Assembly: GCA_019112635.1 (NCBI GenBank)
Contig: DXIX01000023.1
Location: 1-64,000 of the forward strand
Source of the DNA: Candidatus Blautia intestinigallinarum
Lineage (GTDB): Bacteria > Bacillota > Clostridia > Lachnospirales > Lachnospiraceae
Length of the DNA stretch: 64,000 nucleotides
Direction: 5' to 3'
A program made the translations under genes and the position numbers. Positions 4,178 through 60,404 of this stretch are shown here, piece by piece (the first letter of the stretch is position 1; the number at the start of each line of letters is the position of its first letter). The notes under the pieces were generated by a model. The model saw nothing but the letters and a program-made list of their open reading frames with translations. It was not told the DNA's origin and ran no database searches.

Positions 4178-4206
4178 TTGAAAAAGAAAAAACGCAATGT
4201 TATACT
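4178..4206 (+). promoter_or_regulatory. Promoter of the cobalamin-riboswitch transcript
   Basis: TTGAAA at 4178-4183 and TATACT at 4201-4206 are separated by 17 bases. Transcription would begin near 4213, about 27 bases before the recognisable aptamer. Confidence 0.55.
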
Positions 4207-4239
4207 TGAACCAGCAAATTATTTGAAAATTAAATAAAC

Positions 4240-4405
4240 AGTTGGTGCCGCAGGCTACGGCTTGCGGAGAATAGGGAAACAGGTGAGAAGCCTGTGCGAT
4301 CTCGTCACTGTATACAGGAATGTATCGCAAAATATGTCACTGAGAAATTGGGAAGGCTGCGATACGTGTTTTAATCTGTGAGCCAGGAGACCTGCCAGCT
4401 GTGGT
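4240..4405 (+). promoter_or_regulatory. Cobalamin (B12) riboswitch
   Basis: This leader has the conserved blocks of the adenosylcobalamin aptamer in order: GGTGCC near 4244, GGGAAACAGGTGAGAAGCC near 4274, two CACTG elements near 4305 and 4338, GGGAAGGC near 4350 and the B12 box AGCCAGGAGACCTGCC at 4381-4396. Such elements normally lower expression of downstream cobalt or corrinoid uptake genes when coenzyme B12 is plentiful. The downstream terminator hairpin suggests control by premature termination. Confidence 0.93.
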
Positions 4406-4464
4406 ACGGGGATTTTAAATTCCAGATCACGAGGTTTGATTGTACCGAAAAAACTGTTTTCGAC

Positions 4465-4501
4465 AATCCAACTGCGTCTATGCGTTGGATTTATTTTTTT
4501 C
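4465..4501 (+). terminator. Expression-platform terminator of the B12 riboswitch
   Basis: An 8-bp stem (AATCCAAC at 4465-4472 with GTTGGATT at 4484-4491) has an extra GC pair inside its loop and runs into a T-rich tract ending at 4500. It lies between the aptamer and the first gene, so it is the likely off-switch. A small CGAAAA/TTTTCG hairpin at 4446-4462 precedes it and may be part of the alternative fold. Confidence 0.75.
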
Positions 4502-4561
4502 GTATCGTTTTTTATTTGATTTCAGATAAACTGCAAATCTAAGAAAAAAGGAGAGAAAAAA

Positions 4562-6193
4562 ATGAGAAACAGAAAAGTAGCTATTTTGTTGTGCGCAGTG
4601 GCCGTATCCTGCTCTTTGGCGGCTGGATGTGCCGGAGGCAGTACGCAGAGCAGCAGTGATTCTGCCGTGGAAGAAACCACACAGGAGGAAGAGGCGTCTT
4701 CCGATTCCTCCGGGAAAACTTCAGATCAGGAGGCGGCAGATCACGTGGCAGACCTGATTGACGGGATTTATGTTCAGGAGAGAACCGATCAGACGGATGC
4801 ACAGTGCGAGGAAGCCAAAGCAGCCTGGGACGCTCTGACCGATACACAGAAAGAATTGGTGTCCGGAGAATTTGCAGATCCTGACTATTTTGGCAGAGAT
4901 ACTGGAGATGCATCGAAAGATGATCCGCGCAACGGGGATGAGATTGGAGAGAATGAGCTGTTAGTAGTAAGTTTTGGTACTTCCTTTAATGACAGTCGTG
5001 TGGAAGACATTAAATCCATTGAAGACAAGCTGCAGGAAGCCTATCCGGATTATTCAGTGAGAAGAGCTTTTACTGCTCAGATTATCATCAATCATATCCA
5101 GGCCAGAGACGGAGAGAAGATTGACAATATGCAGCAGGCATTGGAGCGTGCAGTGGACAATGGTGTGAAAAACCTGGTAGTTCAGCCCACGCATCTGATG
5201 CACGGAGCAGAATATGATGAGTTGACAGAAGCAGTGGAAGCCTATGCCGATCAATTTGATTCCGTGAAAATCGCAGAGCCGCTCCTGGGGGAAGTGGGAA
5301 ATGATGCCACTGTTGTAAATGAGGATAAGAAGGCTGTGGCAGAAGCTATTACCGAAAAAGCCGTGGCAGATGCAGGTTATGACAGTCTGGATGCGGCAAA
5401 AAAAGATGGAGTGGCCTTTGTGTTTATGGGACATGGAACTTCCCACACAGCGAAAGTTTCCTACAGTCAGATGCAGACTCAGATGGATGAGCTTGGATAT
5501 GAGAATGTATTCATTGGAACGGTAGAAGGGGAGCCAACGGAGACTTCCTGTGAAGCAGTGATTGACAGTGTCTCGGAGGCAGGATATACGAAAGTAATTC
5601 TTCGTCCATTGATGGTTGTAGCTGGCGACCATGCGAATAATGACATGGCTGGTGACGATGACGACTCCTGGAAAACTATGTTTGAGGCTTCCGGGAAGTT
5701 TGAAAGTGTGAAGACACAGATTGAAGGACTGGGATCCATTGAGGCCATTCAGGATCTTTATGTTGCCCATGCAGGTGCTGCAATGGGAGAGACAGAAACA
5801 AAAGAAGACGGAAATGTATTGGAGGATGGAGTCTATTCGGCGGATTTTGATACGGACAGCAGCATGTTTCATGTAAATGAAGCCTGTGATGGAAAAGGAA
5901 CTCTCACGGTGGAGAATGGAAAAATGACGATTCATATTTCTCTGGCATCGAAAAATATTGTAAATCTTTATCCGGGATTAGCTGAGGACGCTCAGAAAAA
6001 AGGTGCGGAAATTTTGGAGCCTACCGTGGATACCGTGACCTACAGTGATGGTATAACAGAAGAAGTCTATGGCTTTGATGTTCCGGTTCCGTCCTTAGAT
6101 GAGGAGTTTGATCTGGCTTTGGTAGGAACTAAGGGCACCTGGTATGATCATAAAGTCAGTGTGTCAAATCCAGTAGCTGAGGAAATGAAATGA
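4562..6193 (+). CDS. Extracytoplasmic CbiK-like chelatase lipoprotein with C-terminal NEAT-like domain
   Basis: A 543-residue exported lipoprotein: the signal peptide ends in the lipobox LAAGC (Cys23). A low-complexity acidic linker and a short helical region (about 60-110) follow, then a CbiK-type anaerobic cobaltochelatase domain (about 131-408). H211 in QPTHLMHGAEY and H291/H295 in FMGHGTSH match the metal-binding histidines of that family. The C-terminal 120 residues (421-541) look like a NEAT-type beta domain (DGVYS... through ...YDHKVSVSNP), a fold that binds haem in Gram-positive surface proteins. CbiK normally works in the cytoplasm on sirohydrochlorin; an exported form is known in Desulfovibrio. 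Under B12-riboswitch control this protein may capture, load or strip metal in tetrapyrroles outside the membrane. Start: GGAGAG shortly before the ATG. Confidence 0.82.
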   Translation: MRNRKVAILLCAVAVSCSLAAGCAGGSTQSSSDSAVEETTQEEEASSDSSGKTSDQEAADHVADLIDGIYVQERTDQTDAQCEEAKAAWDALTDTQKELVSGEFADPDYFGRDTGDASKDDPRNGDEIGENELLVVSFGTSFNDSRVEDIKSIEDKLQEAYPDYSVRRAFTAQIIINHIQARDGEKIDNMQQALERAVDNGVKNLVVQPTHLMHGAEYDELTEAVEAYADQFDSVKIAEPLLGEVGNDATVVNEDKKAVAEAITEKAVADAGYDSLDAAKKDGVAFVFMGHGTSHTAKVSYSQMQTQMDELGYENVFIGTVEGEPTETSCEAVIDSVSEAGYTKVILRPLMVVAGDHANNDMAGDDDDSWKTMFEASGKFESVKTQIEGLGSIEAIQDLYVAHAGAAMGETETKEDGNVLEDGVYSADFDTDSSMFHVNEACDGKGTLTVENGKMTIHISLASKNIVNLYPGLAEDAQKKGAEILEPTVDTVTYSDGITEEVYGFDVPVPSLDEEFDLALVGTKGTWYDHKVSVSNPVAEEMK

Positions 6194-6744
6194 AAAAAGT
6201 ACAAAGAGCTGGAGTAGAAAGAAAAGCCATTACGTATCTTTGTATGGTTCTGATATCTTTGCTGTTGACTTCGATGATCTGTATGGGAGCTTCAGGAGAA
6301 GCAGTGCAGACAGATCTGGAAGACGGAGAGTATTCGATCGAAGTAAAAATGGAAGGAGGCTCCGGACGGGCACAGATTGTGACACCGGCTGTTCTGATTG
6401 TGAGAGATGGATATGCCTATGCGCAGATCCAGTGGGACAGTTCAAGCTATGATTATATGAAGGTGGAGAATGAGAAATATCTCCCTATCAATGAAGAAGG
6501 AAATTCAACATTTGAGATTCCGATCACCGTATTCGGGGAGCCTATGACAGTGATTGGTGATACAACGGCGATGAGTGTACCCCATGAGGTAGAATATACA
6601 TTAACTTTTGATGAAAATTCGATATCTTCAGGAGGAGGGAAAGTATCTGCCGGAAAGATGCTTCCGGGAGTTGTGATCGGAATTGTGGCCATAGGCATTG
6701 CAATCGTTCAAATTAAACGAAAGAATGGTAAGAAGAATGAATAG
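6190..6744 (+). CDS. Membrane-anchored NEAT-like domain protein
   Basis: A 184-residue protein with an N-terminal signal/membrane segment (about 13-32), one beta-rich domain (about 38-150) and a C-terminal transmembrane helix (about 160-177) followed by a basic tail. The domain opens with LEDGEYSIEVKM and closes with VPHEVEYTLTFDE, the pattern at the ends of NEAT haem-binding domains. The classical haem-ligating YxxxY helix is not obvious. The gene overlaps the preceding one by four bases (ATGA), so the two are co-translated. It is likely a surface relay that passes a tetrapyrrole or corrinoid to the binding protein encoded next. The fold call is by eye. Confidence 0.65.
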   Translation: MKKVQRAGVERKAITYLCMVLISLLLTSMICMGASGEAVQTDLEDGEYSIEVKMEGGSGRAQIVTPAVLIVRDGYAYAQIQWDSSSYDYMKVENEKYLPINEEGNSTFEIPITVFGEPMTVIGDTTAMSVPHEVEYTLTFDENSISSGGGKVSAGKMLPGVVIGIVAIGIAIVQIKRKNGKKNE

Positions 6745-7885
6745 GAAATGGTTCATAGTATTGTTCAGTATGATTTTGTTATTCGTTCTGTCTGGGTGCG
6801 GCAAAGCGCGTGAGGCTTTCTCATTGGATCAAAGAAATACAGATATCAGTGAAGAATTAAATTTTGATCATAGTATGGAATTATCTTATGCCCGGGAATT
6901 TGCAGTGGATTACTATGAGAAGGATTATGCTCTGATTACGATTTCTGATGGCAGTCAATATCTTGTGATCCCTGAAGGAGAGACGGAGCCTTCTGATTTG
7001 AGTGAAGAAATTGTGGTTCTTCAAAAACCCGTGGAAAACATTTATCTTGTGGCTTCTGCGGTCATGGATATGTTTGTCTCACTGGACAGTCTGGACAGTA
7101 TTCGGTTCAGTGGACTTCAGGAAAATGGATGGTACATCGAAGATGCCCGAAAGGCGATGCAGTCCGAGGATATTTTATATGCTGGAAAATATTCTGCACC
7201 GGATTATGAGAAAATTCGGGAAGAAGGGTGTGACCTTGCCATTGAGAACACCATGATTTATCATACACCGGAAGTTCAAGAGCAGTTGGAAAAGTTCGGG
7301 ATTCCTGTTCTGGTAGATTATTCCAGTTATGAGGAAAACCCTCTGGGAAGAACAGAGTGGGTGAAGCTCTATGGACTGCTCACGGGACATGAGAAGGAGG
7401 CAGAGGAAGCTTTTGCATCGGAAAAAGAGGCTTTTGAGACTGTGAGTGATTCCGAGCAGACTGGCAAGACGGTGGCGTTTTTCTATATCACTGCGAATGG
7501 TGAGGCAAATGTGCGCAGACCGGAAGATTATCTTTCAAAGATGATTGAGATGGCCGGAGGTGAGTATGTGATTCAGGATACAGGAGATGAGGACAGTACT
7601 TCTTCTACCATAACAATGCAGATGGAAGAATTTTATGCCCAGGCGAAGGATGCGGATTATATTATCTACAACAGTACCATAGACGGGGAGATTAGGACAA
7701 TTGAAGAATTACTCGGGAAGAGCCAGCTTCTGAAAAATTTCAAAGCGGTACAGGAGGAAAATGTCTACTGTACCACGAAGAATTTATATCAGTCGACGAT
7801 GGAGTTGGGAACTATTATCAGGGACATCCATGGCATGCTGCATGACAACGAAGAAGATCTGACCTATATTTATAAGCTGGAGTGA
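6737..7885 (+). CDS. ABC importer substrate-binding lipoprotein (BtuF/FepB-like)
   Basis: A 382-residue lipoprotein with lipobox LSGC (Cys21) and the helix-linked two-lobe layout of periplasmic-binding proteins for iron complexes, haem and B12. It sits directly ahead of a FecCD-type permease and its ATPase. The ATG at 6737 puts the signal peptide at the N terminus; an alternative ATG at 6725 would add only four residues. It overlaps the end of the NEAT-like gene by eight bases. Riboswitch control favours a corrinoid or cobalt-tetrapyrrole ligand, while the NEAT-like partners would equally fit haem. Confidence 0.82.
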   Translation: MNRKWFIVLFSMILLFVLSGCGKAREAFSLDQRNTDISEELNFDHSMELSYAREFAVDYYEKDYALITISDGSQYLVIPEGETEPSDLSEEIVVLQKPVENIYLVASAVMDMFVSLDSLDSIRFSGLQENGWYIEDARKAMQSEDILYAGKYSAPDYEKIREEGCDLAIENTMIYHTPEVQEQLEKFGIPVLVDYSSYEENPLGRTEWVKLYGLLTGHEKEAEEAFASEKEAFETVSDSEQTGKTVAFFYITANGEANVRRPEDYLSKMIEMAGGEYVIQDTGDEDSTSSTITMQMEEFYAQAKDADYIIYNSTIDGEIRTIEELLGKSQLLKNFKAVQEENVYCTTKNLYQSTMELGTIIRDIHGMLHDNEEDLTYIYKLE

Positions 7886-7890
7886 TAAGA

Positions 7891-8904
7891 ATGAAACAAA
7901 AAAGATATTGCGCAGCATTCATCGTTGTGATTGTACTTGTGGTTATTTTCCTTATCTTGAATCTATGTATAGGAAGCGTAAATATCCCCATATCAGAAAT
8001 TCCCAAGATTCTGTGGGGAGAGGGAGCCGATGCGACTTATGGAGATATTGTCAGAGAAATCCGGGCTCCGAGAGCCGTGGCGGCGGTTTTGCTGGGAGGA
8101 GCTTTGGCATTATCTGGATATCTTTTGCAGACGTTCTTCCATAATCCTATTGCCAGCCCGTTTACTCTGGGCATCTCATCTGGAGCGAAGTTGGTTGTGG
8201 CTCTTGTTATGGTAGCTTCCCTTAGTTACTCGATACAGATCAGCTCCTGGCTTTTGATTTTTGCTGCTTTTATCGGAGCGATGATCTGCATGGGGTTTGT
8301 GGTTTTGATGTCCAAAGTGATTAATCAGATGTCTATGCTCATTGTCAGTGGTGTGATGATTGGCTATATCTGTTCAGCAGTCACAGATTTTGTGGTTACC
8401 TTTGCGGATGATTCTGATATTGTCAATCTTCATAACTGGTCCCAGGGAAGTTTTTCAGGAATTAACTGGGATAATGTGGCAATCATGGTGGTTGTGGTTG
8501 TGATAACAGGAATCTGTGTCTTCTTATTATCGAAGCCAATCAGCGCTTATCAGATGGGAGAAGCTTATGCACAGAATATGGGGTTGAATGTTCCGCTCTT
8601 TCGAATTGCGTTGGTTGTTTTATCCAGTATTTTATCTGCATGTGTCACGGCATTTGCAGGTCCCGTATCTTTTGTGGGAATTGCGGTCCCTCATCTGGTG
8701 AAAAGTCTTTTTGGAACGGCGCAGCCTATTTTCATGGTGCCTGCCTGCTTTCTAGGCGGAGCAGCTTTTTGCCTGTTCTGTGATCTGCTCGCGCGAACCA
8801 TGTTTGCCCCTACGGAATTGTCCATCAGCACGGTGACAGCCATGTTTGGCGCACCGGTGGTGATCTACATTATGATACGTCAGAAAAAGGAGAAGATGGA
8901 GTAG
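7891..8904 (+). CDS. FecCD/BtuC-family ABC permease
   Basis: A 337-residue polytopic protein with about ten membrane helices and family signatures of FecCD permeases: REIRAPRAVAAVLLGGALALSG near the N terminus and the GPVSFVGIAVPHLVK cytoplasmic loop that contacts the ATPase. GGAG at 7877-7881 precedes the ATG at 7891; a GTG at 7882 overlapping the previous stop is less likely. It forms the channel of the B12-riboswitch operon. Confidence 0.9.
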   Translation: MKQKRYCAAFIVVIVLVVIFLILNLCIGSVNIPISEIPKILWGEGADATYGDIVREIRAPRAVAAVLLGGALALSGYLLQTFFHNPIASPFTLGISSGAKLVVALVMVASLSYSIQISSWLLIFAAFIGAMICMGFVVLMSKVINQMSMLIVSGVMIGYICSAVTDFVVTFADDSDIVNLHNWSQGSFSGINWDNVAIMVVVVVITGICVFLLSKPISAYQMGEAYAQNMGLNVPLFRIALVVLSSILSACVTAFAGPVSFVGIAVPHLVKSLFGTAQPIFMVPACFLGGAAFCLFCDLLARTMFAPTELSISTVTAMFGAPVVIYIMIRQKKEKME

Positions 8905-8908
8905 AACG

Positions 8909-10006
8909 ATGGAGAAATATTATTTCCGCACAGAAGGGCTGACCGTTGGTTATCACGGGGTTCCTCTGATTAAAAATATTGAGATGGAGATAAAAAAGGG
9001 CGAGATTCTGACTCTGATTGGACCAAATGGTGCGGGAAAGACAACGATTCTTAAAAGTATTATCCGCCAACTTACTCCCATCTGCGGTGTGGTCTGGCTG
9101 GACGGGGAAAAGATTCAGAAGATGAGTGGGACAGAACTGGCCAGAAAAATGTCTGTGGTATTAACACAGCGTGTCCGGCCGGAGATGATGACCTGCAAGG
9201 ATGTGGTGGCGACCGGGAGATATCCTTATACGGGAAGGTTTGGTATTCTTTCTGAAGAAGATTGGAAGATCGTGGAAGATTCTATGGAATTGGTTCATAT
9301 TCAGGAATTCAAGAACCGGGCCTTTTCTGAGATTAGTGATGGGCAAAAGCAAAGAGTCATGCTGGCCAGGGCACTGTGTCAGCAGCCGGACATTCTTGTA
9401 TTGGATGAACCTACGTCTTTTCTGGATATCCGGTATAAACTGGAATTTCTGTCCATTATTCAAAAGATGTCCAGGACCAGGAACCTCACCGTGCTTATGT
9501 CGCTTCATGAATTAGATCTTGCTGGAAGAATTTCTGATAAAATTGCCTGTGTGAGAGAGGATAAAATTGACCGTTTCGGGACACCAGAGGAAATTTTTAC
9601 TTTAGGTTATATACCGGAACTGTATCAGATGACGACAGGTTCCTACAATGAACTGACGGGAAGTCTGGAATTAACCCCCATATTGGGAAAACCGGAAATT
9701 TTTGTGATCGGGGGAAATGGAATGGGAACAGCTGTGTACCGGAGATTGCAAAGAAAGGGAATTCCATTTGTCACAGGAATTCTCTGGGAGAATGATTTGG
9801 ATTATCCGTCTGCCAGGGCGCTGGCAGTGGAAGTGATCTGGGAGAGAGCTTTTTGTGAAATCGATCCAGGACGGGTAGAACAGTCGAAGAAGTGGATTGA
9901 CCGGTGCAGACAGGTGGTCTGCCCTGTTAATCTGGAGGAAAGACACAGATTCTGCCGTGAATTGATTGAATTGGCAGATTATGCAAAAGCGCAGAGAAAA
10001 CTATGA
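8909..10006 (+). CDS. ABC ATPase (BtuD/FepC-like) with C-terminal Rossmann-like extension
   Basis: A 365-residue ATPase beginning four bases after the permease. Walker A GPNGAGKTT is at 38-46, the signature SDGQKQR at 143-149, Walker B ILVLDE at 162-167 and the switch histidine at 200. After about residue 255 the protein goes on for some 105 residues with an IFVIGGNGMGTAVYRRL stretch and further alpha/beta pattern, resembling a nucleotide- or cofactor-binding module that plain BtuD/FepC proteins of about 255 residues lack. The extension could be a sensor or a salvage activity linked to the imported corrinoid; its function is not known to me. Confidence 0.87.
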   Translation: MEKYYFRTEGLTVGYHGVPLIKNIEMEIKKGEILTLIGPNGAGKTTILKSIIRQLTPICGVVWLDGEKIQKMSGTELARKMSVVLTQRVRPEMMTCKDVVATGRYPYTGRFGILSEEDWKIVEDSMELVHIQEFKNRAFSEISDGQKQRVMLARALCQQPDILVLDEPTSFLDIRYKLEFLSIIQKMSRTRNLTVLMSLHELDLAGRISDKIACVREDKIDRFGTPEEIFTLGYIPELYQMTTGSYNELTGSLELTPILGKPEIFVIGGNGMGTAVYRRLQRKGIPFVTGILWENDLDYPSARALAVEVIWERAFCEIDPGRVEQSKKWIDRCRQVVCPVNLEERHRFCRELIELADYAKAQRKL

Positions 10007-10626: not shown

Positions 10627-12118
10627 ATGTGGAAGTATATCGGAAAATATTTGCCTTTTGCCATATTGGCCGCCGATTTTATGCTGGGGGAAGTGTGGAT
10701 GGATCTGCTCCAGCCAGGACTGATGAGCCGGATTGTGGACGAGGGGATTTTACGGGCAGGGGGCAGTGACCTACAGATCATCAAAAAACTGGGACTGCAG
10801 ATGATTTCTCTGGCTTTTCTGGGAATTTTCTGTGGATCGATGAATAACATTTTTGTGCATCTTTCTTGTCAGAATATCGGCAACGGGATTCGCAAGGACT
10901 GTTTTTGTCACAAAGTTCTTGTCGGGCAAAGTCCGCAAGTTCTCCAGAAAAAGGCAGGCATATCTGGGGAAACTCAATGCGGCGGCAGAGGAAATGATCA
11001 CGGGCTATCACACTGTGGCCGCTTACAATCATCAAAAAGCATCTATTGAACAGTTTTGCAAGGTCTCAGACGCCTTGACAAAAGCCGGAATCCGAACAGA
11101 TATTTTCAGCGGCGTGATGGGACCGGTGATGAACGGGATCGGCAATATTGGTTTTGTGTTGATTGCAGTTTTCGGCGGCTACTTTGCGGTGAAAGGACTG
11201 ATTTCTGTGGGGGTGATCTCTGCCTTTATTGTGTATGCTAAGCAATTCAGTCGTCCCGTGAATGAGATTGCTCAGATTTACGGGCAGCTGCAGACAGCCC
11301 TGGCAGGCGCAGAGCGGGTATTTAAGGTTCTCGATGAAGGAGAAGAGGAGAAAAGAGGAACTCTCTTTGACGATCACGGTACAGCAGAGATTTCTTTTGA
11401 GAATGTCTGTTTTTCTTATCAGAAAGGACAGCCAGTGATCCGGAATTTTACCTTGCATGTGCCTTCCGGCAAGAAAGTAGCTTTCGTGGGAGCTACAGGA
11501 AGCGGAAAGACAACTTTAGTGAATTTGCTGATGCGTTTCTATGATATTGACAGTGGCCAGATTCGAGTGAATCAGCAAAACCTTTCTGATCTATCGAGGG
11601 AAAGTCTTCGGAAAAATGTCGCAATTGTTTTGCAGGATGCGGCACTGTTTTCCGATACAGTGGAGAATAATCTGAAGTATGCCAATGAGAATGCCACAGT
11701 GCAGCAGATCCAAAAAGCGGCCCGTATGAGCTGTTGTGAGGATATGATTGAGAGGCTGCCAGAGGGATACAGCACAGTTCTGGCCGGACAGGGAGAGAGA
11801 CTCAGCCAGGGGCAGAGACAGCTTTTGACCATTGCCCGGGCATTTGCCGCAGATCCCAAGATTCTGATCTTTGATGAGGCAACCTCCAATGTGGACACCC
11901 GAACGGAGAAAGCCATCCAGGATGCGATGCAAAATGTTATGAAAAACCGTACCAGCATTGTCATTGCACATCGTCTCTCCACCATCCGTGAGGCAGACAT
12001 GATTGTGGTAATGGATCACGGAGAGATGGCAGAGGCAGGAACACACGAGGAGCTTTTAAGGAAAAAAGGAAAATATTATGAATTATATAGGACGCAGTAT
12101 GCTGGATTCTCTACATGA
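10627..12118 (+). pseudogene. Chimeric, out-of-frame remnant of a two-gene ABC exporter
   Basis: The first 93 codons or so (from ATG 10627, opening MWKYIGKYLPFAIL) match the start of the first half-transporter of a heterodimeric multidrug ABC exporter and stay in frame to IRKDCF near 10905. The remainder, in a different frame and ending at 12118, corresponds to the partner half-transporter from its last two or three membrane helices (KFSRKRQAYLGKLN onward) through a complete ATPase with GATGSGKTT, LSQGQRQ and ILIFDEATS. About half of each transmembrane domain and the whole first ATPase are missing. The joint lies around ACTGTTTTTG at 10898-10907, readable as sequence of either gene. A deletion of roughly 2 kb between the paralogues is the simplest reading; an assembly collapse would look the same. 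A truncated protein could start at an internal ATG but would lack a full membrane domain. Confidence 0.75.
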
Positions 12119-12126
12119 TGTTGATT

Positions 12127-13989
12127 TTACGGCGACAGAAAAAAGGAGAATAACTGTGCGCAGGAGGAAAACAAAAAACAGGCAGTCATCCCCATTAGAG
12201 TGGGGAGTAAAATGGCGGCAAGCGTCCATTTCAGACTTCCGGTTTCCCGGTGAATGGTAAGAATGGTGGTGCCGCAGGGCCAGTGCATGAGAGAAAATAG
12301 GAGCACACACACGGCGGTGATCCAGGTCCAGCCGTTGTCGGCGAGTAACTGTCCAATGAAAGCAAGATCTTCGACTTGCAGAATGCTTCCCTGGGCCAGA
12401 TAGGTCATCAGCATAATGGGAATGACGATTTCGTTGGCCGGCATTCCCAGAAGGAATGACATGAGAATTACGCCGTCCAGCCCGAGAAGTCTTGCGAAAG
12501 GATCCAGGAAGCTGACACAGTGGCGCAGAATGGTGGTGTCACCGAGCTGTATATTTGCCAGAATCCAGATCAGGAGTCCTGCGGGAGCGGCAATCAGTAC
12601 AGCACGGCCGAGAACAAAAACCGTGCGGTCAAGGACAGAACGGAGAAATACTTTGAAAAATTGCGGTCTGCGGTATGGCGGCAGTTCCAGAGTAAAAGAG
12701 GAGGGAAGTCCTCTTAGCAGCGTTTTTGATAAGATCCAGGAGGCTAGCAAAGTCATGGAGATACTGAACAGAATTACCAGTGTCAAGACGAAAGCTGCCC
12801 CCAGAGAAGCTGATATGCCGGTATTCCCTGTGAAGAAAAAGAGGGAGGAGACCGTGAGAATGACTGGAAACCGCCCATTGCACGGGGTCAGACTGTTGGT
12901 GAGGACGGCGATCATCCGCTCTCTGGGAGAATCGATGATACGGCATCCAGTCACACCGACAGCGTTACAGCCAAGCCCCATACAGACCGTGAGAGCCTGC
13001 TTGCCGCAGGCGTGACATTTCTGAAAACAACGATCCAGACAAAAAGCAATTCTAGGCAAATATCCAAAATCTTCCAGCAAAGTAAAAAGCGGAAAGAAAA
13101 TTGCCATGGGTGGAAGCATGACAGAGACAACCCAGGCGAGTACCCGCAGAATCCCGGACAGCACAGGAGCGTATAAGATTTCGGGAATTTGGAGGTTTAT
13201 CGCAAGTTTTTCTAATTGTTCCAGAACCCAGAACAGTCCGTCATACAAGAGAGAGGAGGGCAGGCTTGCCCCGCTGATGGTGATCCAAAAGAGAAATAAA
13301 AGTAGAAGAAATAAGATGGAAAATCCTGTTTTTCTGCTGGTAAAAATATGATCCAGCCTGCGGTCAAAGCGGTCGTAATGTGGATTTTCAAACCGGACTG
13401 CCTTGCGGCAGATTGCTTCACAGCGATGGATAAAGGCAGCAGTCTGTGTGTCCTGAAGGAATTTCGCGGAATACTGGTCAGGTGAAGCATTCCTGTGAGT
13501 GTCAAGGGCTTGCTGGACAGCAGGAAATATCTGATTCAGTCCACTCCTCTGGCGGGCACAGATACCGATCACAGGAATTTTCAGTTCCTGGGAGAGAAGT
13601 TTGAGATTGACCGAGATCTTTTTCTTTTTGGCTTCATCCAAAAGATTGACACAGAGAATAACCGGAACTTCTGTGGACAGAATCTGCAATACCAGATTCA
13701 GGTTGCGTTCCAGACAAGTGGCATCGCAGACCGCGATCACCGCATCTGGATGTCCTGCACAGATGAAATCTCTGGCAATTTCCTCCTCTTCTGAGTGAGC
13801 CATCAGAGAATAGCAGCCGGGCAGGTCGACCAGAGTATAGGTATCCTCACCGTGCCGGCAAATTCCCTGCGCACAGGAAACCGTTTTTCCAGGCCAATTT
13901 CCAGTATGTTGGTTCATGCCAGTTAAGGCATTGAATAAGGTACTTTTTCCTACGTTGGGATTCCCGGCCAAAGCCACTGTTTTATGCAT
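12127..13989 (-). CDS. feoB: Ferrous iron transport protein B
   Basis: A 620-residue iron(II) transporter. The N-terminal G domain carries the G1 motif GNPNVGKS (residues 9-16) and the DLPGCYSL G3 region, followed by the helical GDI-like region and a membrane domain with the two Gate-type repeats. The start is the ATG at 13989, five bases after GGAGG; a GTG at 13995 touches that site. It is shorter than the 700-770 residues of enterobacterial FeoB, as is common in Clostridia. feoA lies 15 bases upstream. The 3' end is only eight bases from the convergent exporter remnant, with no terminator visible between them. Confidence 0.95.
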   Translation of the reverse strand: MHKTVALAGNPNVGKSTLFNALTGMNQHTGNWPGKTVSCAQGICRHGEDTYTLVDLPGCYSLMAHSEEEEIARDFICAGHPDAVIAVCDATCLERNLNLVLQILSTEVPVILCVNLLDEAKKKKISVNLKLLSQELKIPVIGICARQRSGLNQIFPAVQQALDTHRNASPDQYSAKFLQDTQTAAFIHRCEAICRKAVRFENPHYDRFDRRLDHIFTSRKTGFSILFLLLLFLFWITISGASLPSSLLYDGLFWVLEQLEKLAINLQIPEILYAPVLSGILRVLAWVVSVMLPPMAIFFPLFTLLEDFGYLPRIAFCLDRCFQKCHACGKQALTVCMGLGCNAVGVTGCRIIDSPRERMIAVLTNSLTPCNGRFPVILTVSSLFFFTGNTGISASLGAAFVLTLVILFSISMTLLASWILSKTLLRGLPSSFTLELPPYRRPQFFKVFLRSVLDRTVFVLGRAVLIAAPAGLLIWILANIQLGDTTILRHCVSFLDPFARLLGLDGVILMSFLLGMPANEIVIPIMLMTYLAQGSILQVEDLAFIGQLLADNGWTWITAVCVLLFSLMHWPCGTTILTIHRETGSLKWTLAAILLPTLMGMTACFLFSSCAQLFSFFLSP

Positions 13990-14004
13990 AGACACCTCCA
14001 GATT

Positions 14005-60139: not shown

Positions 60140-60404
60140 GTATCAGCATTGAGAAGAAGGAGTAATCTCAGGGATAGCGGACAGAGAACAGCCGGTTGGT
60201 GAGAGGCGTACGGGAAGACTGGGATGAATACATCTTTGAGCTTCGCACTGAACCGTAAGAGCAGTAGGCTGCGACGTGTTGACAGACGTTACACTGTCCG
60301 GGTATGTTGGTACCCATGGAGGCAGTCTGTGTGAGCAGTCTGTGAATGAAGGTGGTAACACGGGAAGTTCTCTCGTCCTTTTGGAAAGGACGGGAGTTTT
60401 TTTA
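60140..60404 (+). promoter_or_regulatory. Tyrosine T-box riboswitch
   Basis: The leader has the T-box sequence AAGGTGGTAACACGG (60349-60363) that pairs with the tRNA acceptor end, and a terminator stem CTCTCGTCCTTT (60370-60381) with AAAGGACGGGAG (60385-60396) followed by seven T residues. In the stem I specifier region GAATACA contains UAC (60229-60231), a tyrosine codon, in agreement with the downstream tyrS. Uncharged tRNA-Tyr should favour read-through into tyrS. Confidence 0.93.

Follow-up and report, generated by a model that had tools for sequence, protein, structure and literature searches.

A B12-riboswitch operon encoding an exported CbiK-NEAT lipoprotein and an importer in Lachnospiraceae: a probable surface route into B12 synthesis

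The window analysed here is a stretch of 64,000 nucleotides from Candidatus Blautia intestinigallinarum (GenBank GCA_019112635.1, contig DXIX01000023.1, listed here as C6 of a 2.1 Mb assembly that is 75% complete). It holds an operon in which a cobalamin (B12) riboswitch precedes genes for an exported CbiK-family lipoprotein with a fused NEAT-like domain, a second NEAT-domain protein and a binding lipoprotein with a FecCD/BtuCD-type importer. Comparison with relatives suggests that the operon is genuine and widespread and that it probably represents a new way into B12 synthesis from the cell surface, and we put at roughly two in three the probability that it is a B12-repressed surface pathway supplying the Cbi pathway with a cobalt-loaded tetrapyrrole from outside. 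The comparative evidence is strong: export signals, a metal triad, the riboswitch, a near-fixed gene order with fusions, and coupling to corrin-ring (cbi) genes recur in many relatives. A first-pass annotation of the window had proposed surface handling of a tetrapyrrole under B12 control, by cobalt insertion, metal exchange or capture. The handling itself is well supported by the comparison and cobalt insertion before import emerges as the best option; because of the company of cbi genes, the loss of HemC in about half of the carriers and the presence there of a lone class II CbiK, the reading moves away from capture and towards a front end of B12 synthesis.

The riboswitch match lies above the RF00174 gathering score (cut-off 31.5 bits) and is followed by five tightly packed open reading frames (ORFs) (Table 1). 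Rfam, Pfam, the reading frames and structure models confirmed the parts recognised in the first-pass annotation, namely the riboswitch, the lipobox-bearing CbiK domain, the NEAT-like parts and the FecCD importer, as well as their close packing.

By profile, the first protein is a member of the CbiK family (Pfam PF06180, E 1.5e-75, 254.3 bits against a gathering cut-off of 26.2) that is not filed as the NCBI equivalog NF047852 (195.2 bits, cut-off 400); the CbiO-fused CbiK of the same genome likewise falls below that cut-off (280.2 bits). The lipobox, ending at C23, was read directly in the sequence, and a simple rule found one in 110 of a set of 119 distinct proteins made up of the window's own and its close relatives. 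The nine outside the rule comprise four with a non-lipoprotein signal, one (L116) with a lipobox missed by the rule and four that are cut or unclear. Export is a general feature of these proteins. An AlphaFold2 model of the CbiK and fused domains, computed from alignments made here (pLDDT, the predicted local distance difference test, 88.4), matched Salmonella CbiK (1qgo, template-modelling (TM) score 0.90), Porphyromonas gingivalis FetB (9b86, 0.88) and the periplasmic CbiK of Desulfovibrio vulgaris (2xvz, 0.89).

The triad H291/E322/H357 was found to be invariant in 90 of 90 CbiK sequences, aligned after thinning and capping from 111 stretches, and the exported CbiK as a decayed chelatase was rejected on this ground. 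Its counterparts in Salmonella CbiK are listed in Table 1; Glu175 is, we assume, the third metal residue there. His145 and His207 are given as the metal ligands of that enzyme in passages of PMC7689651. Of the metal histidines proposed at first, H211 together with H291 or H295, H291 does align with a CbiK metal ligand, but its partner in the alignment is H357; H211 and H295 are invariant too, yet neither is the second metal histidine.

Pfam NEAT matches were weak for both NEAT-like domains (E 0.13 and 0.018, under the gathering score), the second protein reaching 15.9 bits against a PF05031 cut-off of 32.8. Among 60 relatives of that protein, 39 matched NEAT at E ≤ 0.1, the best at 4.1e-6. For its AlphaFold2 model (pLDDT 84.7), the top 46 Foldseek matches in the PDB were all NEAT proteins, 14 at E ≤ 0.001, and TM scores to the target reached 0.73, so that what had been noted as a second NEAT-like membrane protein is now predicted to have the NEAT fold. 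For the fused C-terminal domain, the model is confident and shows a beta sandwich; its profile aligned to that of the second protein (hhalign probability 97.4%, E 1.3e-11), and 11 of 18 members with the fused-type domain gave a weak Pfam NEAT match. Searched only within the whole CbiK-NEAT model, it returned no NEAT protein among the 50 structure matches listed, and a sequence-profile search of the PDB with both NEAT profiles gave no NEAT match.

Both NEAT types carry an invariant histidine on the last model strand, H132 in the second protein and H530 in the fusion. Haem-binding NEAT domains hold their ligand through a Tyr-x-x-x-Tyr motif; here, the second protein has His-x-x-x-Tyr and the fused domain an invariant histidine, its place relative to the tyrosine motif being judged from strand positions in the models, not from residue-level superposition. 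It is plausible, by inference, that histidine serves as a cobalt ligand in these domains, and its presence at the place of the haem binders' tyrosine argues against haem as the cargo. Haem or iron acquisition of the Isd or Iht kind, with the exported CbiK stripping iron from haem and the NEAT domains carrying haem, would accord with structure matches that place the NEAT fold nearest to haem carriers and with FetB, a match of the CbiK-NEAT model, being called a haem-binding protein; the CbiK-like lipoprotein IhtB is also thought, in passages of PMC10913741, to take iron from haem. The B12 box in front, the cbi genes behind in many relatives and the strict link to CbiD described below point elsewhere; together with the exchange of His for Tyr, they led us to reject haem uptake as the main role, which we consider very improbable.

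The closest relatives, judged by the operon, are mostly Lachnospiraceae. A comparison of 110 loci was made (the window, with 29 and 80 from two homologue searches, some sharing a species). The parts found at each locus follow the order CbiK, fused-type NEAT, second NEAT, substrate-binding protein (SBP), BtuC, BtuD in the window and in the set of 80, with L051 and L112 as the exceptions. Of these 81 loci, 61 have the permease no more than 6.5 kb downstream of CbiK, and 11 are too short to judge. Single ORFs contained CbiK alone (18), CbiK+NEAT (46), CbiK+NEAT+NEAT (14), NEAT+NEAT (9), NEAT+SBP (33) or two CbiK (3). Proteins with two CbiK domains were seen at L013:418-3222, L051:6917-9721, L098:1239-4088 and L103:5771-8512. 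More distant genomes showed an altered order, with NEAT ahead of CbiK in one protein (G168) or a NEAT-SBP fusion (G072). In a phylogeny of 68 CbiK domains, which is poorly resolved (5 of its 65 branches starred), the CbiK-NEAT fusion state changes about 15 times, and this repeated fusion of neighbouring modules suggests that neighbouring parts hand over their cargo physically. The operon is thus a module widespread among Lachnospiraceae in which the borders between genes have been shuffled. Of the 102 loci with 500 nt or more readable upstream, 94 have a B12 box there with at most two mismatches (best of 20 shuffles, 1/102), and Rfam confirmed a cobalamin riboswitch at all seven operon loci tested.

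Coupling to corrin-ring synthesis is seen at the other end of the operon, where, by a scripted rule, 35 of 51 loci have a cbi gene either next after the ATPase gene or joined to it in one frame; L066, which the overlap limit caused the rule to miss, makes 36. The ATPase is fused to CbiP at eight loci, to CbiD at one and to CbiE-CbiT at one; CbiA as a fusion partner was rejected, the best match being CbiP. A single long operon runs from CbiK through CbiA in G131, G193, G290, G297, G100 and others, in the order CbiK, NEAT, NEAT, SBP, BtuC, BtuD, CbiP, unlabelled genes, CbiB, CobD, CbiC, CbiD, CbiF, CbiG, CbiH, CbiJ-CbiE-CbiT, CbiA.

To place the module among genomes, 299 genomes of the family were surveyed, with at most four candidates scored per genome, which makes all carrier counts lower bounds. 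At least 98 are carriers, 74 close (≥450 bits) and 24 more distant; the distant group held 26 genomes at 230–304 bits, and loci were read in 24, all but G256 and G280. G062 and G019 were dropped from the carriers, their CbiK having no signal or module. The ring enzyme CbiD is present in 96 of the 98 carriers, and carriers among CbiD-less genomes number at least 2 of 128 (Fisher p ~1e-27, uncorrected for kinship).

Among CbiD-positive genomes, the module was found in at least 46 of 58 without HemC versus at least 50 of 113 with HemC (p ~1e-5, again uncorrected for kinship), and 30 of these 46 HemC-less carriers are at least 95% complete. HemC is also missing in 25 of the 50 genomes behind named-collection loci, a subset of the 80 for which completeness is not given; Hespellia stercorisuis DSM 15480, Oscillibacter sp. 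ER4 and Butyrivibrio sp. Su6 are among the HemC-less named carriers, whose downstream genes include cbiP, cbiC, cbiD and cbiF in Butyrivibrio sp. Su6 and, as far as seen, cbiP alone in H. stercorisuis. HemC is present in Roseburia faecis M72 and in Eubacterium ramulus. Gene-loss searches covered 80 genomes, 57 of the 58 CbiD-positive HemC-less ones (G293 left aside) and 23 of 34 HemC-positive close carriers (≥97% complete), the CbiX search being confined to the 57. In the 46 HemC-less CbiD-positive carriers, HemB was found in none, a uroporphyrinogen methyltransferase above cut-off in three (43 without), exactly one CbiK (E ≤ 1e-10) in every one, and no CbiX match outside the exported CbiK itself. 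By this genome comparison, these relatives have no recognisable HemB, HemC, other CbiK or CbiX, which leaves the exported CbiK as the sole class II cobaltochelatase recognised in them.

The 23 HemC-positive close carriers present a different picture, with HemB in 20, uroporphyrinogen methyltransferase in 23, CbiL in 21 and two to three CbiK in 18, of which 10 have an extra CbiK no farther than about 10 kb from HemC (e.g., L175, L177). In their distribution, the HemA/B/C-CobA-CbiK-CbiL front end and the exported module thus act as if they were two interchangeable beginnings of the same pathway. The HemC state changes about 15 times over the CbiK tree, at least five of them on well-supported branches.

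Capture of finished corrinoids, with the CbiK fold as a surface corrinoid binder and NEAT domains passing cobalamin or cobinamide to BtuFCD, would agree with the B12 riboswitch in front and with the nearest NCBIfam models of the importer, BtuC for the permease (218.6 bits, below the equivalog cut-off of 334) and the corrinoid ABC ATPase for the ATPase (209 bits, below 537); exported, non-enzymatic B12 binders exist in Bacteroidetes according to passages of PMC8941943. Capture should, however, favour non-producers, and the carriers are nearly confined to corrin-ring makers; moreover, the chelatase triad is invariant, ATPase fusions to the mid-ring enzymes CbiD and CbiET are odd for finished corrinoids, and HemC-less carriers would be left without a start of the pathway. 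Plain corrinoid scavenging as the main role was rejected on the CbiD link, the invariant triad and the CbiD/CbiET fusions, and we regard capture as unlikely.

Two genomes bear on where the metal is inserted. In the HemC-less genome G186, a CbiK-CbiD fusion without export signal stands directly after BtuFCD (L182:5954-8296) and may represent an alternative, intracellular version of the system. G094 (99% complete, L178:8034-12116) has NEAT, SBP, BtuCD and a cbi operon behind a B12 box, a gene set that fits an importer of rings already loaded with cobalt. Both could also be taken to mean that the importer accepts metal-free sirohydrochlorin-type rings and that the main task of the surface CbiK is to remove or swap a wrong metal, G186 having BtuFCD beside its signal-less fusion and G094 an importer and no CbiK. 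Insertion inside the cell would then call for another chelatase, and no other CbiK or CbiX was found in the 46 HemC-less carriers; metal-free import is considered quite improbable.

Several observations weigh against supply of a cobalt-loaded ring from the surface as the role of the operon. Both NEAT assignments are below the Pfam cut-off by sequence. No permease was found within 6.5 kb downstream in 9 of 70 judgeable loci with at least 5.5 kb readable (L042, L048, L050, L051, L055, L063, L065, L081 and L112), and by the scripted rule the ATPase has no cbi gene after it in 16 of 51 loci, one of them the window. Linkage of CbiK and CbiD on the same strand and contig, at most 25 kb apart, holds for 25 of the 46 HemC-less CbiD-positive carriers but not for 20, with one that could not be assigned; contig breaks account for some, and in the single-contig G232 the two genes are 2 Mb apart. 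Twelve CbiD-positive HemC-less genomes have no exported CbiK, and in one of them, G094, neither any CbiK nor a fused-type NEAT was found. HemC is present in the window's genome and 33 other close carriers; therefore, carriage of the module extends beyond auxotrophs. With just two supported pairs, a phylogeny-aware pair test lacked power. Class I CobN was not searched for, which limits the lone-chelatase claim to class II.

The missing CbiL is a further point on this side. CbiL was detected (E ≤ 1e-30) in 21 of the 46 HemC-less CbiD-positive carriers and not in 25; therefore, a ring already methylated at C20, or another route, would be required in the latter. Near-complete corrin operons are present in these 25 genomes (L126-L137, L146-L163 and others). 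A hidden CbiL was rejected as far as tested, the Pfam TP_methylase matches (four in 21 of the 25, three in G100, five in G122 and G184, seven in G226) being otherwise accounted for: those in the operons are explained by CbiF, CbiH and CbiE, G122 and G184 carry a uroporphyrinogen methyltransferase, and G226 has doubled contigs. In all 10 genomes sampled, the unlinked methylase proved to be RsmI, an rRNA methyltransferase; the remaining ones were judged by place and size.

Taking both sides together, we favour cobalt insertion at the surface, with extracellular insertion, ring identity, transfer and import all inferred from genomes. Under B12 shortage, the riboswitch would open the operon, and the surface CbiK lipoprotein would act on a scavenged ring of the sirohydrochlorin type, inserting cobalt, perhaps once another metal has been removed, or exchanging the metal. 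The fused NEAT domain and then the second NEAT protein would carry the cobalt-tetrapyrrole through the wall region and hand it to the binding lipoprotein, from which BtuCD would import it for entry into B12 synthesis at the level of cobalt-factor II or III, leaving the Cbi enzymes to finish the ring. In CbiL-less species, the imported ring would already be C20-methylated (cobalt-factor III level), or C20 methylation may be done or avoided otherwise.

The 46 HemC-less relatives have the gene pattern of tetrapyrrole precursor salvagers, with CbiD present and HemC and HemB absent. The window organism does not show this pattern, having HemC, CobA-HemD, precorrin-2 dehydrogenase, CbiL and a signal-less CbiK (HemA was recognised by eye). 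Given its HemC, CobA-HemD, CbiL and second CbiK, the module is auxiliary there and would act as a scavenging supplement to the de novo front end. The signal-less CbiK, on contig C11 (L006:6609-8270), is fused behind the cobalt-transport ATPase CbiO and follows CbiM, CbiN and CbiQ under its own B12 riboswitch; such a fusion would combine cobalt import and insertion in one polypeptide. A third B12 riboswitch of this genome (L007:7136-7322) precedes a small cysteine-rich protein (L007:7391-7840) with no NCBIfam match at 1e-5, and the ORF after it has, by eye, a metallo-beta-lactamase-fold look.

Table 1. Features of the B12-riboswitch operon, in window positions.
Feature	Position	Strand	Evidence
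Cobalamin (B12) riboswitch aptamer RF00174	4226..4413	+	cmscan 100.3 bits, E 6.7e-24
Exported lipoprotein: CbiK domain (residues 133-407) and C-terminal NEAT-like domain (~411-541)	4562..6193	+	Pfam, AlphaFold2 model, lipobox
H291, aligns with Salmonella CbiK His145	5432..5434	+	alignment; invariant 90/90
E322, aligns with Salmonella CbiK Glu175	5525..5527	+	alignment; invariant 90/90; role of Glu175 assumed
H357, aligns with Salmonella CbiK His207	5630..5632	+	alignment; invariant 90/90
Fused NEAT-like domain; some relatives encode it as a lipoprotein of its own	5792..6190	+	hhalign; weak Pfam; invariant W/D/H
Invariant H530 of the fused NEAT-like domain	6149-6151	+	conservation
Second NEAT-domain protein (predicted fold), C-terminal membrane helix, invariant H132 and Y136	6190..6744	+	AlphaFold2, Foldseek, conservation in 60 sequences
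Substrate-binding lipoprotein, BtuF/IsdE class (ATG start)	6737..7885	+	Pfam Peripla_BP_2 E 1.2e-30
FecCD/BtuC-type permease	7882..8904	+	Pfam FecCD E 4.7e-82
BtuD-type ATPase with ~120-residue C-terminal extension	8909..10006	+	Pfam ABC_tran E 1.7e-32

Downstream of the operon, an ABC exporter half-transporter (10627-12118) appears to be split over the overlapping frames 10627-11049 and 10853-12118 in a frameshift-like manner and adjoins a MarR-type regulator; a FeoB-type ferrous iron transporter (12127-13995) lies on the strand opposite to the operon. A T-box leader (60140-60383, 98 bits) is the sole other Rfam match above cut-off in the window.

Parts of the module are already known, and in the literature searched no description of the whole assembly or of its link to corrin synthesis was found; nor was a paper joining CbiK and 'NEAT domain', the originals on P. 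gingivalis B12 and IhtB lying outside the coverage of the search. The nearest relative is the P. gingivalis Iht system, in which a CbiK-fold lipoprotein adjoins a binding protein, a permease and an ATPase (FetB of PDB 9b86 is presumably the same protein as IhtB). It is unlike the module in having an outer-membrane TonB receptor and in being described for haem and iron, and the passages of PMC10913741 on it mention no NEAT domain. P. gingivalis is reported, in passages of PMC6461909, to be without precorrin-2 synthesis. As a guess, IhtB may correspond to the module on the Gram-negative side and supply the start that the B12 pathway of that organism lacks.

The periplasmic CbiK of D. vulgaris (2xvx/2xvz) is likewise exported and close in fold; it is a single-domain protein for which, to our knowledge, no NEAT domain or importer operon has been described. 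The cytosolic CbiK of anaerobic B12 synthesis shares enzyme family and operon company with the module, whose CbiK is exported instead. In the Isd relay, surface NEAT domains pass a metallated tetrapyrrole to a FecCD-type importer, a likeness in fold and in direction of passage; unlike Isd, the module is under B12 rather than iron control, has His for Tyr and a built-in chelatase, and is coupled to cbi genes in many relatives. Tetrapyrrole precursor salvagers resemble the HemC-less carriers in having the corrin pathway and no early tetrapyrrole steps; passages of PMC6461909 report three salvager strains shown to use 5-aminolevulinic acid (ALA) and name no importer or uptake route. Since the 46 carriers lack HemB and HemC, ALA could not help them, unlike the ALA-using salvagers.

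The module is a concrete candidate uptake route for salvagers, with named carriers, and if the proposed route is true, it would explain how they feed the B12 pathway without making the ring. It would also mean an extracellular biosynthetic step in B12 synthesis and a non-haem cargo for NEAT domains, would point to a new cross-fed compound in the gut, and would make IhtB of P. gingivalis worth a second look; that 25 carriers have no CbiL hints that the compound entering the pathway is not the expected one. More tentatively, and with slightly less than even confidence, gut Clostridia may carry out the committed metal insertion of the B12 pathway outside the membrane, in community-derived rings that in many species are already C20-methylated, relay the product via His-ligated NEAT domains and build B12 from it. 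A pre-corrin ring would then be a shared currency of the gut.

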